Shown piece by piece: positions 3,750 to 9,361 of a DNA stretch of 59,270 nt. A model generated the notes under the pieces. That model saw nothing but the letters and a program-made list of their open reading frames with translations. It did not search any database and was not told the origin of the DNA. The stretch spans positions 1-59,270 of the forward strand of contig JBDIWM010000006.1 of the NCBI GenBank assembly GCA_039638595.1, given 5' to 3'. This DNA comes from Atribacterota bacterium. GTDB taxonomy: Bacteria > Atribacterota > Atribacteria > Atribacterales > Caldatribacteriaceae. How positions within the stretch are numbered: the first letter of the stretch is position 1; every line of letters begins with the position of its first letter. The translations under genes were made by a program, and so were the position numbers.

Positions 3750-4263
3750 ACGAAAATTACTGACGACGTCACCCGACTAATCAGAAAGGCACCGCTTATG
3801 CGACGGGGAAAAAATTGCAAAAGACTTGCCGGAGGAAGTTGTGGCTAAACTTGAATTTTTCAACCCCCGTAAGAGTCTAAAAGAGGCCCCTTTAGTCATG
3901 ATTGAAGATGCCGAAAAAGGAAGACTCTCAAAACCTGAAACACTCATAGTTGAACCAACCATCGGCAATACCGGAATTGGTTTAACCTTTATCTTTGCCC
4001 GGGGGTGTCGCCCGGTTCTCTCCATGCCGTGTTCAAGGAATTGGGACCGGCTTTATTCCAGACATTCTCCAGGTAGAGCTTCTGAACGCGATTATCACGG
4101 TAAGCAATAAAGACGTCTTTGCCATGTTAAAATGCCTGGCAAAAGAGAAAGACATAGCTGCCTGGTGGTGAGCAATCAAAACCGCAAAAAGAGAGTAAAA
4201 CCAGGAGAGTTCATCGTAGTTATTCTCCCCAACACTGGTGAACGGTATTTATCAATTTTTTGA
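3750..4263 (+). pseudogene. cysK: Decayed cysteine synthase (cysK) pseudogene
   Basis: Pieces of O-acetylserine sulfhydrylase can be read in order across three frames. An N-terminal ITDDVTRLIRKAPLMR follows AGGAGG and an ACG where the ATG should be. After a frameshift comes IAKDLPEEVVAKLEFFNP and, further on, VEPTIGNTGIGL. Then the sequence jumps to GIGTGFIPDIL and VSNKDVFAML, and ends with VVILPNTGERYL before TGA at 4261-4263. About 100 central residues are deleted. A lysine survives at the PLP-binding position (NPRKSLKE instead of NPGGSVKD). The start codon, frame and middle are all lost, so no enzyme can be made. The remnant shows that the Rrf2-controlled operon once carried cysteine synthesis. 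Confidence 0.9.
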
Positions 4264-5317: not shown

Positions 5318-6249
5318 AGGAAGGAAGTGCAAAAAACATGATGGACGATCTTAAAAAAGATATTTTCAAACTCAAACAAGAAAAAAAAGCGCTGATTCTT
5401 GCTCACAATTACCAGTTACCCGAAGTACAGGATGTGGCTGATTTCGTAGGAGACTCGCTGGGCTTGAGCATCGCAGCGAGTCAAACCGATGCCAAGGTGA
5501 TTGTATTTTGTGGTGTTTTCTTTATGGCAGAAACGGCCAAAATCCTTTCCCCTCAGAAGTTGGTTTTATTGCCCGAAGAAAAAGCTGGATGTCCAATGGC
5601 CGACATGATTACTGCACCGCAGCTGAGAGAGCTTAAAAGTCTTCACCCTCAAGCGGTAAGCCTATGCTATGTTAATACCTCGGCAGCAGTGAAAGCTGAA
5701 TGTGATTATTGCTGCACTTCAGCAAACGCCGTGAAAATTGTAGAGGAGAGCTTGAAATCAGCTGCAGAAATTATTTTTGTTCCAGATCAACATCTTGCCC
5801 GATATGTTGCTTCTCAAACTGGAGGAAATTTCATCATTTGGCCGGGATACTGTCCGGTTCATGTCGATATCACACCAGAACACATTGAAGAGGCAAAAAA
5901 GCGTTATCCTCAAGCCCCTGTCCTTGTCCATCCTGAATGTCGTCAGGAAGTGATCGAACTTGCAGACCACGTTCTTTCCACGGAAGGCATGTGTTGGTAT
6001 ATGAAGAAGTCTTTAGCCTCCACCTTTATTGTGGGAACCGAAGTGGGGATTCTGTATCGCCTGCAAAAGGAAAATCCAACAAAGCGCTTTTATCCTGTGA
6101 GTGAGAATGCCATATGTGTTGATATGAAAAAGATTACCCTGGAAAAAATCGTGTCGAGCTTGGAAAAAATGGAATACCAGATTGAGTTACCAGAAGCAAT
6201 CATTCAGAAGGCACAAAAAAGCATCAAGAGGATGATTCAATCTACATGA
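5314..6249 (+). CDS. nadA: Quinolinate synthase A (NadA)
   Basis: NadA condenses iminoaspartate with dihydroxyacetone phosphate to quinolinate in NAD synthesis, using an oxygen-sensitive 4Fe-4S cluster. In this 311-residue protein the three ligand cysteines appear as C93 (KAGCPMAD), C180 (WPGYCPVH) and C267 (AICVDMK). The substrate motifs AHNYQLPEVQD and VGDSLGLS are intact. The partner nadB and the next enzyme nadC are not in the window. The start at 5314 overlaps the mnmA stop. An internal ATG at 5338 is better spaced from the GGAAGGAAG sequence and could be the real start. An iron-sulfur enzyme fits the putative Fe-S-sensing Rrf2 operon. Confidence 0.95.
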   Translation: MKEGSAKNMMDDLKKDIFKLKQEKKALILAHNYQLPEVQDVADFVGDSLGLSIAASQTDAKVIVFCGVFFMAETAKILSPQKLVLLPEEKAGCPMADMITAPQLRELKSLHPQAVSLCYVNTSAAVKAECDYCCTSANAVKIVEESLKSAAEIIFVPDQHLARYVASQTGGNFIIWPGYCPVHVDITPEHIEEAKKRYPQAPVLVHPECRQEVIELADHVLSTEGMCWYMKKSLASTFIVGTEVGILYRLQKENPTKRFYPVSENAICVDMKKITLEKIVSSLEKMEYQIELPEAIIQKAQKSIKRMIQST

Positions 6250-6254
6250 AGCTC

Positions 6255-8198
6255 CTAAGGGAGTTCACACTCTCCTTTTAATCTCTTAATGCTGGCTTTG
6301 AGGATGGCGTGAAGCATTTCTTGATACGACAATCCCGCAAAGAAGGCCATCTTTGCCAGGTGTCCATCCCAGCACCAGCCGGGGTTAGGGTTCACTTCCA
6401 GGAGATAAGGGTGGCTATCTTTACTAAGACGCCAGTCAAACCGGGCATAATCTCGGCATTCCAACCGTTCGAAGAGCTTCAAAGAGCTTGTAACGATGAC
6501 TTTTTCAGTTTCTTTGTCCAATGTACAGGGAACGGAAGTAACCTTACCGTAAGGCGAATCCGGAAGCCATTTGGCTTCATACCCACAGATGGGTGGTAAC
6601 CCTGGAGCAAGGAAGCTATAGTCTTCCTCGGTGAGCGGGAGGATTTGGTACGATTCAGGGGGATTTCCAATGATTCCCAGGCTCAGATCTTTACCAGTGA
6701 GGAACTCTTCCACTAGGATTGGTTTATCGTAACCAAACTTTCCCCGGATTTCGGAAACGGCTTCCACAAAATCATCCATATTTGTGGCAACACTTTTCTG
6801 AGTGATACCGAAACTGGAATCCCCAAAATTGGGTTTGAGAATAACCGGAAAATGAAAAGGGAGGTTGAAGGTGAAATCGTCAGATTGAATGAGAAAAGCC
6901 TTCGGAACCGGAATACCCATTTCTTTAGCTATACCACGAACCAAAGATTTGTCATAACAATACGCAAGACACCGAGGCGAGGAGCCAGTATATGGAAATC
7001 CCAGAATTTCAAGAAGGGCAGGGATATGGAGTTCTTTGCGAGCATCGTTGCTAAACCCTTCGTCACAAAGGTTAAACACAAGATCAACTTTGCCTCGAAG
7101 TTTCACAAGATCATGAACGAGTGTATCATGCCGATCAAGATAAATAAAAGAATAACCCGAGAGGTCGTTCAGAACACTTTTTAGGCTCTGAACTGTATAA
7201 AGGTCATCTTCGTCAAAAACCGTGTTTGGTTTAATCGGATCTGGTTGATGAGGATCTCCGAGGAGAACAGCGACTCTGAAGCTCTTTTTTTTACTCTTTC
7301 CTAGACGATCAATCGAGACAGGTTTATGCACCCGCGCACTCAGGAGGATTCTCCGTTCCATCATTCCCAGGTCCTGACAACGGGTGGATTCAGAAAAATG
7401 ACTTCCATGACAAATGATATCCTTAAATCCGCTTTCTTCAAGAAATGCGCAAAGATCTTCCTTCGAATAAAGACGCTCGGCATAGAACTGATCAGCAATG
7501 ACCCCATTTTCCACATGGGTAATGATTTCTCTGGAAATTAAGCGCTGACCATCGGTAGAGAGAGAACGTTCTCGAAGTACAAATTGTTTCTTCCCAATCC
7601 ATTCCCAAGAACGGGCTTGGAAATGATCCTTTAGGTATTCGCCATCGGCAACATCGATAAATATTTTCCCAACCGGTTTAAGAACTCGGTGGACTTCTTG
7701 TAACACCCTGAGGTCATCCTGAACGCTTTCAAAATATCCAAAGCTATTTCCAAGAATGAGCACTACGTCGAAACTGCTTACAGGGTAGGGAAGCCTTCGA
7801 GCGTCTCCCTCCTTAAACTGAACATTCAGACCCTCTTTTCTTGCTTGCTGCCGGGCTTTCTGAATCAAATAGTGAGATCGGTCCAGACCGTAAACTTTTG
7901 TAAAACCACGCCGAGCAAGTTCTAGAGAGTGTCGCCCCTGTCCACAGCACAGGTCAAGAATCGCGTCGTCTGGCTGAAGTCCCAGCATCTTAGTAAAAAA
8001 ATCCACCTCTTTTTTAGTGATATTTTGATCGTCAACTACGTCAGCATCGGTTTTGAGATAAAGAGAATTAAAAATATACCTCCACCAGTCAGGGTGCACG
8101 TACTCTTCCAATGATGGGATCGGACCTAAGGAACGTAGCCTTTTACCTCGAATTCTAGCTGGAACCGAAAACCGATGAACATCAGTTTCTTCTTTCAT
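6255..8198 (-). CDS. Fusion: SAM-dependent methyltransferase + D-Ala-D-Ala ligase-like ATP-grasp enzyme
   Basis: The predicted protein has 647 residues. Residues 36-290 form a class I methyltransferase with motif I DLCCGQGRH around 82-90, the acidic motif II at GLDRS and a later LKPVGKIF. Residues 307-640 resemble D-Ala-D-Ala ligase-type ATP-grasp enzymes. They have FNLCDEGF and PYTGSSP in the N-terminal subdomain, VILKPNFGDSSFGI as the ATP-binding grasp loop and the metal-binding LLEVNPNPG near 599-607. I chose the ATG at 8198 because GGAGGAAGAG lies just upstream; the earlier GTG at 8216 is part of that site. The ligase half suggests formation of a peptide or amide bond, with methylation of the same or a linked substrate. 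The substrate is unknown. It is convergent with nadA, with only 5 bases between their stops. Confidence 0.85.
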   Translation of the reverse strand: MKEETDVHRFSVPARIRGKRLRSLGPIPSLEEYVHPDWWRYIFNSLYLKTDADVVDDQNITKKEVDFFTKMLGLQPDDAILDLCCGQGRHSLELARRGFTKVYGLDRSHYLIQKARQQARKEGLNVQFKEGDARRLPYPVSSFDVVLILGNSFGYFESVQDDLRVLQEVHRVLKPVGKIFIDVADGEYLKDHFQARSWEWIGKKQFVLRERSLSTDGQRLISREIITHVENGVIADQFYAERLYSKEDLCAFLEESGFKDIICHGSHFSESTRCQDLGMMERRILLSARVHKPVSIDRLGKSKKKSFRVAVLLGDPHQPDPIKPNTVFDEDDLYTVQSLKSVLNDLSGYSFIYLDRHDTLVHDLVKLRGKVDLVFNLCDEGFSNDARKELHIPALLEILGFPYTGSSPRCLAYCYDKSLVRGIAKEMGIPVPKAFLIQSDDFTFNLPFHFPVILKPNFGDSSFGITQKSVATNMDDFVEAVSEIRGKFGYDKPILVEEFLTGKDLSLGIIGNPPESYQILPLTEEDYSFLAPGLPPICGYEAKWLPDSPYGKVTSVPCTLDKETEKVIVTSSLKLFERLECRDYARFDWRLSKDSHPYLLEVNPNPGWCWDGHLAKMAFFAGLSYQEMLHAILKASIKRLKGECELP

Positions 8199-8246
8199 AC
8201 AGAACTCTTCCTCCACGAAGACTCGTTGTTCATTGAATTAAGAATG

Positions 8247-8274
8247 ATTATAGGTCGAAGGGGAGAAAAAACAA
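8247..8274 (-). promoter_or_regulatory. Predicted promoter of the methyltransferase/ATP-grasp gene
   Basis: On the minus strand, TTGTTT (8269-8274) and a perfect TATAAT (8247-8252) are 16 bases apart. This implies a leader of about 40 bases before the ATG at 8198. Confidence 0.5.
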
Positions 8275-8347: not shown

Positions 8348-9361
8348 ATGCTTCTCCGGAGCAATGTGGTTTTGGTTTTATTTTTTCTCCTTTTCAGTTA
8401 TATTTCTCTTGAAAGCGTAAGCGAACGATTGACCGCTCAACTTCAAGAGCGATTTGCATTTTCTTATCAGGAAAATGAACGCATTAAAGTTCAGCTATGC
8501 AACTATTTTGGTCTTTCTTGCCCAGAAAAGGAAGGCAAAAGAATTTTTATGCTCCCCGAAACGCTGGCTCAATACGCTCAGGGAATCCTTTATAAAAATG
8601 TCCGATATGGCCGGAAGAAAAATCAGATTCTGGACGTGATGGTTCCTTTATCTCTCCGGCAAGGGGAGAAACTTCCCGTTTTCGCCTTCGCCCATGGGGG
8701 TACCTGGATTGGGGGCAGTAAAGATGAAGTCCTTTATGCCCAGTTCAGTAAGGAAATTATTCGGAATCGATACATTTGGGTAAGCATTGACTATCGGGTC
8801 TACCCTGAGGTCTCAATCTCGGGAATGACCAAGGATATCGTTACTGCACTCACGTGGGTCTATGAACATATCGAGGAATACGGTGGGGATGCGAAAAAGC
8901 TTACTCTCAGTGGGCACCCTGCAGGAGCGCATCTTGTAGCGCTCCTCACAGTTGGGAAAGATTCGTTGCCTTTTCCTCTTTATCAGGCTGTTAAAAAAGT
9001 GCTGCTTCTCAGTGGCCCATATGATCTTTTGGCATATAAGGGAAATATAGACATTCGCTGGAAAGAGGTGGTCGAACTCCTCTTCATTAACCTTTTCGAA
9101 GGACGGAGGAATCTCCGTTCTGTTTCACCAGTGTATCAGGTGGAGAAAGTCCCCTTCCAGTTTCTCCTTATGGTAGGCGAAAAGGATGAGGTCACTCCAC
9201 CTTCCCAAACGGAGTGCCTTTACCGAGCGCTTCGTGAAAAAGGAAACAGAGCCATATTGCACCGCATCTCGGGAAAAGGTCATGGAGGCGTACTCCTGGC
9301 GCTGAATTCTGACTTTGAACAGGATTTTCCCTCAGTACTGGCCCAGTTTCTCAAAAATTAG
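8348..9361 (+). CDS. Alpha/beta-hydrolase (esterase/lipase-like) with Ser-to-Pro change at the nucleophile
   Basis: This 337-residue protein has an N-terminal hydrophobic anchor or signal at about 6-20. It belongs to the hormone-sensitive-lipase/BD-FAE type of hydrolases. The oxyanion motif HGG is at 116-118, the acid D280 is in VGEKDEV and the base H312 is in GKGHGG. The nucleophile elbow, normally GHSAGAH, reads GHPAGAH, with proline at 191 (codon CCT at 8918-8920). TCT, a single base away, would restore serine. As written the enzyme should be inactive, although the rest of the frame is intact. It would act outside the membrane if the signal is real. Its stop overlaps the convergent lipoprotein gene by 4 bases. 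Confidence 0.82.
   Translation: MLLRSNVVLVLFFLLFSYISLESVSERLTAQLQERFAFSYQENERIKVQLCNYFGLSCPEKEGKRIFMLPETLAQYAQGILYKNVRYGRKKNQILDVMVPLSLRQGEKLPVFAFAHGGTWIGGSKDEVLYAQFSKEIIRNRYIWVSIDYRVYPEVSISGMTKDIVTALTWVYEHIEEYGGDAKKLTLSGHPAGAHLVALLTVGKDSLPFPLYQAVKKVLLLSGPYDLLAYKGNIDIRWKEVVELLFINLFEGRRNLRSVSPVYQVEKVPFQFLLMVGEKDEVTPPSQTECLYRALREKGNRAILHRISGKGHGGVLLALNSDFEQDFPSVLAQFLKN

Follow-up and report, generated by a model that had tools for sequence, protein, structure and literature searches.

A widely spread protein joining a probable small-molecule N-methyltransferase to an ATP-grasp ligase in bacteria and archaea

The minus strand of the window, by which we mean the whole 59,270-nucleotide stretch of DNA analysed here, carries a gene for a 647-amino-acid protein that joins a class I SAM methyltransferase to an ATP-grasp ligase of the D-Ala-D-Ala-ligase (Ddl) superfamily. 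The protein belongs to an uncharacterised, ancient family of wide distribution in which two known kinds of enzyme are combined, and both halves of the chain are apparently competent catalytic domains. We consider it fairly probable that the protein is bifunctional, an amide ligase and a small-molecule N-methyltransferase acting on one product; the amide nature of that product, its N-methylation and the order of the steps are what we infer. An earlier note, made from the DNA letters, had proposed an undescribed biosynthetic enzyme at exactly these coordinates, without giving the strand. In agreement with it, no account of the fusion was found in the full-text literature searched; reviews of ATP-grasp amidoligases may mention it.

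The gene and its two domains

The host is an Atribacterota bin, 97% complete. Translation of the minus strand from 8198 to 6255 gives 647 residues with no internal stop. The ATG at 8198 is the likely start, since an alternative GTG at 8216 coincides in part with the GGAGG ribosome site (8214-8210). The features are as follows.

6255 to 8198, minus strand: fused methyltransferase / ATP-grasp ligase gene, 647 aa, ATG at 8198 and TAG stop at 6257-6255 (translation, Pfam, homologues)
8210 to 8214, minus strand: ribosome-binding site GGAGG, about ten bases upstream of the ATG (read directly)
8247 to 8274, minus strand: possible promoter TTGTTT-16-TATAAT (read directly from the letters; absent from the scan output)
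7329 to 8111, minus strand: class I SAM methyltransferase domain including a beta-strand cap, residues ~30-290 (Pfam, model; closest solved relative NmbA, 9RI2)
7929 to 7961, minus strand: SAM motif I ILDLCCGQGRH, residues 80-90 (alignment of 54 homologues)
7284 to 7328, minus strand: inter-domain linker, residues 291-305, pLDDT below 50 at 294-304 (AlphaFold model)
6270 to 7283, minus strand: ATP-grasp ligase domain, D-Ala-D-Ala-ligase superfamily, residues ~306-643 (Pfam, model, Foldseek, alignment)
7056 to 7076, minus strand: FNLCDEG replacing the Ddl HGxxGEDG loop, residues 375-381 (alignment)
6567 to 6578, minus strand: EAKW, with Trp544 at the Ddl Tyr216 position, residues 541-544 (alignment)
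6360 to 6392, minus strand: NPNPGWCWDGH, with Mg-binding Asn603 kept and WDG replacing the acceptor-carboxylate Ser281/Leu282 of Ddl, residues 603-613 (alignment)

The gene stands alone, as had been noted earlier: it converges on nadA (stop at 6249), 5 bp away, and points away from an esterase-like gene at 8348. A strong promoter of its own had also been claimed for it, and this stood in part: the TATAAT at 8252-8247 is perfect, but the TTGTTT 16 bp upstream matches the -35 consensus poorly, at three of six positions, and a consensus promoter scan found none above chance. The GC content of the fused gene equals that of the window (0.449 against 0.458) and thus bears no mark of recent foreign origin. 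Elsewhere in the window, at 3777-4110, behind an Rrf2 regulator and between a gene for a ThiI-like/NFACT-R protein and mnmA, lies the remnant of a PLP-dependent, cysteine-synthase-like enzyme gene that is broken across several frames; its PALP match (Pfam, E 2.6e-6) is below the cut-off.

Two catalytic domains in one chain, as the earlier note had read them, are recognised by Pfam above the curated cut-offs: Methyltransf_25 at residues 80-177 (E 9.7e-24) and Dala_Dala_lig_C at residues 425-633 (E 9.9e-25, 87.7 bits against a cut-off of 24). An AlphaFold model built from a 54-sequence alignment (mean pLDDT 84, pTM 0.54) has two well-predicted domains, ~30-290 and ~306-643, joined by a linker that is floppy at 294-304; the relative placement of the domains is unreliable.

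The methyltransferase half keeps D82, C85, G86 and G88 of motif I invariant in the 54 homologues. The closest solved protein by sequence is NmbA (9RI2), which a profile of residues 17-248 matches over NmbA residues 14-242 (E 1.4e-30); the match spans the full length of this half, beta cap included, at ~25% identity, and the adenine-stacking Y134/F135 of NmbA align with Y155/F156. The structural neighbours are for the most part methyltransferases of small molecules or peptides; many act on nitrogen, and these include NmbA, CypM, CcbJ, glycine/sarcosine N-methyltransferase and TylM1. Since NmbA and these others are its nearest relatives, this half is, judged by homology, most likely a small-molecule N-methyltransferase, and it could target another atom or substrate. 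UbiE (ubiquinone/menaquinone) and arsenite methyltransferase identities were rejected on scores far below the curated cut-offs, as was glycine/sarcosine N-methyltransferase itself (57.1 bits against the NF051855 cut-off of 350). The authors of the NmbA structure reported that AlphaFold misplaced the NmbA cap (PMC12719100), and for this reason we draw nothing from the modelled pocket.

The closest structural matches of the ligase half in Foldseek are Ddl structures, for example 3R5X (E 8.6e-20). We aligned this half with E. coli DdlB, in what we take to be its reference sequence, with the genome's own Ddl-like proteins, whose genes are 29-30% identical to it, and with relatives. All of the nucleotide, Mg and oxyanion residues of Ddl are retained: Lys97, Lys144, Glu180, Lys215, Arg255, Asp257, Glu270, Asn272 and Gly276 correspond to K417, K455, E497, K543, R586, D588, E601, N603 and G607. 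The substrate side differs: FNLCDEG stands in place of the HGxxGEDG loop (His63-GxxGED), Trp544 in place of Tyr216, and CWDGH in place of TSHSL with its Ser281/Leu282, where the alignment is uncertain by about one residue. FNLCDEG (375-381) and LLEVNPNPG (599-607), the two signatures picked out in the earlier note, are conserved among homologues, and across 87 diverse fused members NPNPGW, W610, D611, G612 and H613 hardly vary. Because the Ddl substrate pocket is not retained, and with the best NCBIfam Ddl score (122.8 bits) far below its curated cut-off of 243, identity with the cell-wall Ddl (EC 6.3.2.4) is ruled out. A best-hit annotation as "D-alanine--D-alanine ligase" would falsely place the fusion in cell-wall synthesis, in archaea as well as in bacteria. 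The altered pocket may instead accept an acceptor without a carboxylate.

Spread and single origin of the fusion

Full-length fusions make up all 80 of the best database loci (the best 80 of at least 578 relatives); these represent dozens of lineages of bacteria and archaea, with identities of 62-89% across some 615 or more residues. This rules out a sequencing error or artificial fusion, and it answers the earlier note's doubt as to whether the halves are always separate in relatives and its call to search for the same two-domain architecture.

The fused form is present in genomes from 8 or more of the bacterial and archaeal groups sampled; phylum labels outside Atribacterota are taken from the locus at the centre of each genome set. 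A match is present in 33 of 50 Atribacterota genomes, nearly always at full length, and in 18 of the 22 of good quality. The fused form occurs in about 40 of 228 Asgard-like genomes, about 19 of 200 from the Geocrenenecus (Thermoproteota-like) phylum (49-65% identical), about 8 of 297 from the Desulfonema phylum, 4 of 199 from the Planctomycete phylum, 3 of 133 Zixibacteria-like genomes, a handful of 199 that are Aminicenantes/Acidobacteriota-like and 1 of 201 that are Chloroflexota-like. Some odd lineage assignments may be due to contamination of metagenome-assembled genomes. The gene is usually single-copy, and no viral carriage of it was found.

Fused proteins of bacteria and archaea retain 62-69% identity. 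With presence so patchy yet identity so high, transfer may well have moved the gene between lineages; the fusion tree needs six bacteria/archaea changes, of which the starred branches force only one. The same identity, together with the preservation of both active-site architectures, argues that the family must make something useful.

The fusion has a single origin. In the ligase-domain tree the ligase halves of fused proteins form one clade with a long stem (SH-aLRT 100). The sole intruder in it is L154, a ligase-only protein whose branch is long and which may have lost a domain. The two halves have diverged together, their distances correlating at r = 0.87 over 3741 pairs. Separate halves are rare and include a methyltransferase-only protein at 53% identity (L114) and the ligase-only L154 at 40%. 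One archaeal genome has a methyltransferase ORF followed by a ligase ORF with a 14-bp overlap (L144, 7037-8996), which is either a natural fission or a frameshift. At another locus (L028, genome G047) the fused gene has one in-frame TGA.

Gene neighbourhoods and related genes

The fused gene usually stands alone. No general conserved operon partner was found in 80 genome loci, nor among 93 loci whose flanks could be used; in 35 of these 93 no gene of the same direction lies close by. The search for conserved neighbours that the earlier note had called for therefore yielded no general partner, only the recurrence of polyamine genes and of an AstE/DoeB-like deacylase gene; the latter adjoins the fused gene in three loci from two phyla (L039, L094, L107). 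One locus (L084) has a co-directional run of genes for a pyruvoyl arginine decarboxylase (PvlArgDC), a deoxyhypusine-synthase-like (DHS-like) protein and agmatinase, with the fused gene following the agmatinase gene after 8 bp. At another (L076) a bis(guanidino)azanonane-synthase gene, above its cut-off, lies 657 bp upstream, and in three Asgard loci (L180, L184, L188) PvlArgDC and DHS-like genes are within 5 kb. In all, polyamine genes are near the fused gene in 5 of ~120 loci from 3 lineages. This linkage is only modest, because the three Asgard loci are related and a rough chance expectation is about 0.8 loci. Nor is the PvlArgDC/DHS polyamine route a general partner, since in Atribacterota, the host phylum, PvlArgDC is present in 1 of 50 genomes and deoxyhypusine synthase above cut-off in none of the 50.

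Two further neighbours were considered as functional partners and set aside as probable lineage-bound synteny. In one genus of Atribacterota the fused gene shares a 4-bp overlap with a gene for a threonine-aldolase-like, glycine-forming enzyme. The gene for PAN (proteasome-activating nucleotidase) is adjacent in six Asgard loci (L180, L181, L184, L188, L191, L192), at 2-43 bp in five of them; this neighbourhood is probably lineage synteny. Extra ligase-only ATP-grasp genes also lie near the fused gene in Asgard-like loci (L174:4318-5439, 51%, and L186:5508-6503, 25% identical to the ligase half).

Apart from L154, the nearest relatives of the ligase half are pairs of single-domain Ddl-like ATP-grasp proteins (about 30-38% identity), apparently without a name, whose genes are arranged in tandem, or convergently in archaea. 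In Desulfobacterota (L121-L127, L173) these pairs adjoin PvlArgDC, agmatinase and DHS-like genes, and in Thermoproteota-like (L150-L153) and Aminicenantes-like (L158-L162) loci they occur with lysine-2,3-aminomutase-like and GNAT genes; the operons look like an undescribed amide-conjugate pathway. Like the fused ligase half they carry a Trp where Ddl has Tyr216, and in each pair one of the two proteins has an Asp-x-Gly-like acceptor motif. Unlike the fusion they lack a methyltransferase domain, are found in operons and fall outside the fused clade of the tree. A different combination is found in three loci (L094:9371-11530, L170:4594-6759, L172:6380-8524), where a Ddl-like ATP-grasp domain is fused to an M20/CPG2-like peptidase domain and adjoins gamma-glutamyltransferase-like and HutG-like genes.

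Methyltransferase-only homologues with 38-43% identity to the methyltransferase half occur in Desulfobacterota (L115-L120, L128), within a three-gene unit of a DUF885 metallopeptidase, a ~466-aa ATP-grasp-like protein and the methyltransferase. The ~466-aa protein has the ATP-grasp-like motifs KPxxGYSGxGIxVG and weakly matches a putative glutathionylspermidine synthase (E 0.0023). As in the fusion, this methyltransferase is again probably paired with a ligase, but the genes are separate and the partner comes from another ATP-grasp branch. A methyltransferase working with a ligase thus appears to have been assembled twice, the second ligase being a putative call from weak scores and motifs read by eye. 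An hhalign comparison of the methyltransferase with the ATP-grasp-like protein gave no match, as expected.

Proposed function and comparison with known systems

In the reaction that we propose, the C-terminal half would bind ATP-Mg and phosphorylate the carboxylate of an amino-acid-like first substrate, whose amine would be held by the acidic FDEDD loop, and an amine nucleophile would then attack the activated carboxylate to give an amide. The acceptor pocket, with Trp544 and Asp611-Gly612-His613, departs from the Ddl one and would fit an acceptor that lacks an alpha-carboxylate and may be cationic. Candidates are agmatine, putrescine and other polyamines, and a polyamine-like acceptor is a tentative suggestion. 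The N-terminal half would N-methylate the free amine of the amino acid before or after ligation, by analogy with NmbA, which methylates the cysteine amine of bacillithiol (PMC12719100, PMC6282198) after amide linkage. The earlier note's methylated, amide-linked small molecule is a plausible product of this domain combination, but the neighbouring genes, in the window and across about 120 loci, give no hint of the osmolyte, metallophore or peptide tag that the note had named.

Dipeptides are the main products of Ddl-superfamily ligases, Ddl and the L-amino-acid ligases joining two amino acids, which argues for a ligase half that links two amino acids into a dipeptide, a reading close to that of the earlier note; the methyltransferase would then N-methylate the dipeptide to a compound resembling an osmolyte or a betaine. 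The methyltransferase half counts glycine/sarcosine N-methyltransferase among its relatives, and the threonine-aldolase-like gene of one Atribacterota genus would also fit. However, the residues at Ser281/Leu282, which hold the acceptor carboxylate, and at Tyr216 are replaced by a nearly invariant WDG and Trp, and osmolyte genes are not recurrent in either the 80 or the 93 loci; we regard a dipeptide as rather unlikely. The product may instead be a low-molecular-weight thiol, the ligase linking the carboxylate of cysteine to an amine and the other half methylating the cysteine amine. This would parallel BshC plus NmbA in N-methyl-bacillithiol, with an amide at the carboxylate and a methyl on the free amine, and NmbA is the closest solved relative, cap included. 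Identity to NmbA is, however, ~25%, no thiol gene is linked to the fused gene, and the family is common in archaea, where the NmbA authors did not find a complete BSH pathway (PMC12719100); a thiol seems improbable.

Even less probable, in our estimate, is modification of a macromolecule (a protein C-terminus, tRNA or the cell envelope) in place of a free metabolite. The high identity between bacteria and archaea and the adjacency of the PAN gene in several Asgard loci would agree with this, and protein tagging is possible for ATP-grasp enzymes. Against it, the methyltransferase half resembles small-molecule N-methyltransferases, a substrate-recognition domain is absent, and the PAN adjacency is limited to one lineage.

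We therefore return to the bifunctional amide ligase and N-methyltransferase. Its most specific version, that the fusion makes a widespread, hitherto undescribed small molecule in which agmatine or a polyamine is amide-linked to an N-methyl-aminoacyl (perhaps N-methyl-cysteinyl) group, is a long shot; if true, a single fused enzyme would supply anaerobic bacteria and archaea with a compound equivalent in function to bacillithiol or glutathionylspermidine. The fused gene is directly expressible, and for uncultured anaerobes such as Atribacterota and Asgard the identification of its product would reveal a new conserved metabolite.

Among named systems, Ddl (VanA/VanG group, ATP-grasp, PF07478) has the same fold, ATP/Mg and catalytic residues as the ligase half; the HGxxGEDG loop, Tyr216 and the Ser281 region are not retained, and the ligase half is fused to a methyltransferase. 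Glycine/sarcosine N-methyltransferase (NF051855, 5HII) shares fold and core motifs with the methyltransferase half but is not the same family by score. NmbA of Chlorobaculum tepidum (9RI2) resembles that half over its full length, in the cap and in the adenine-stacking Tyr-Phe pair, and loosely matches the conserved N-terminal WW...YLKTDxDV segment of the fusion family. At 25% identity the methyltransferase half falls outside the NmbA authors' network cluster, which takes 35% identity or more (PMC12719100), and NmbA is a stand-alone enzyme, whereas the fusion carries both domains in 647 aa.
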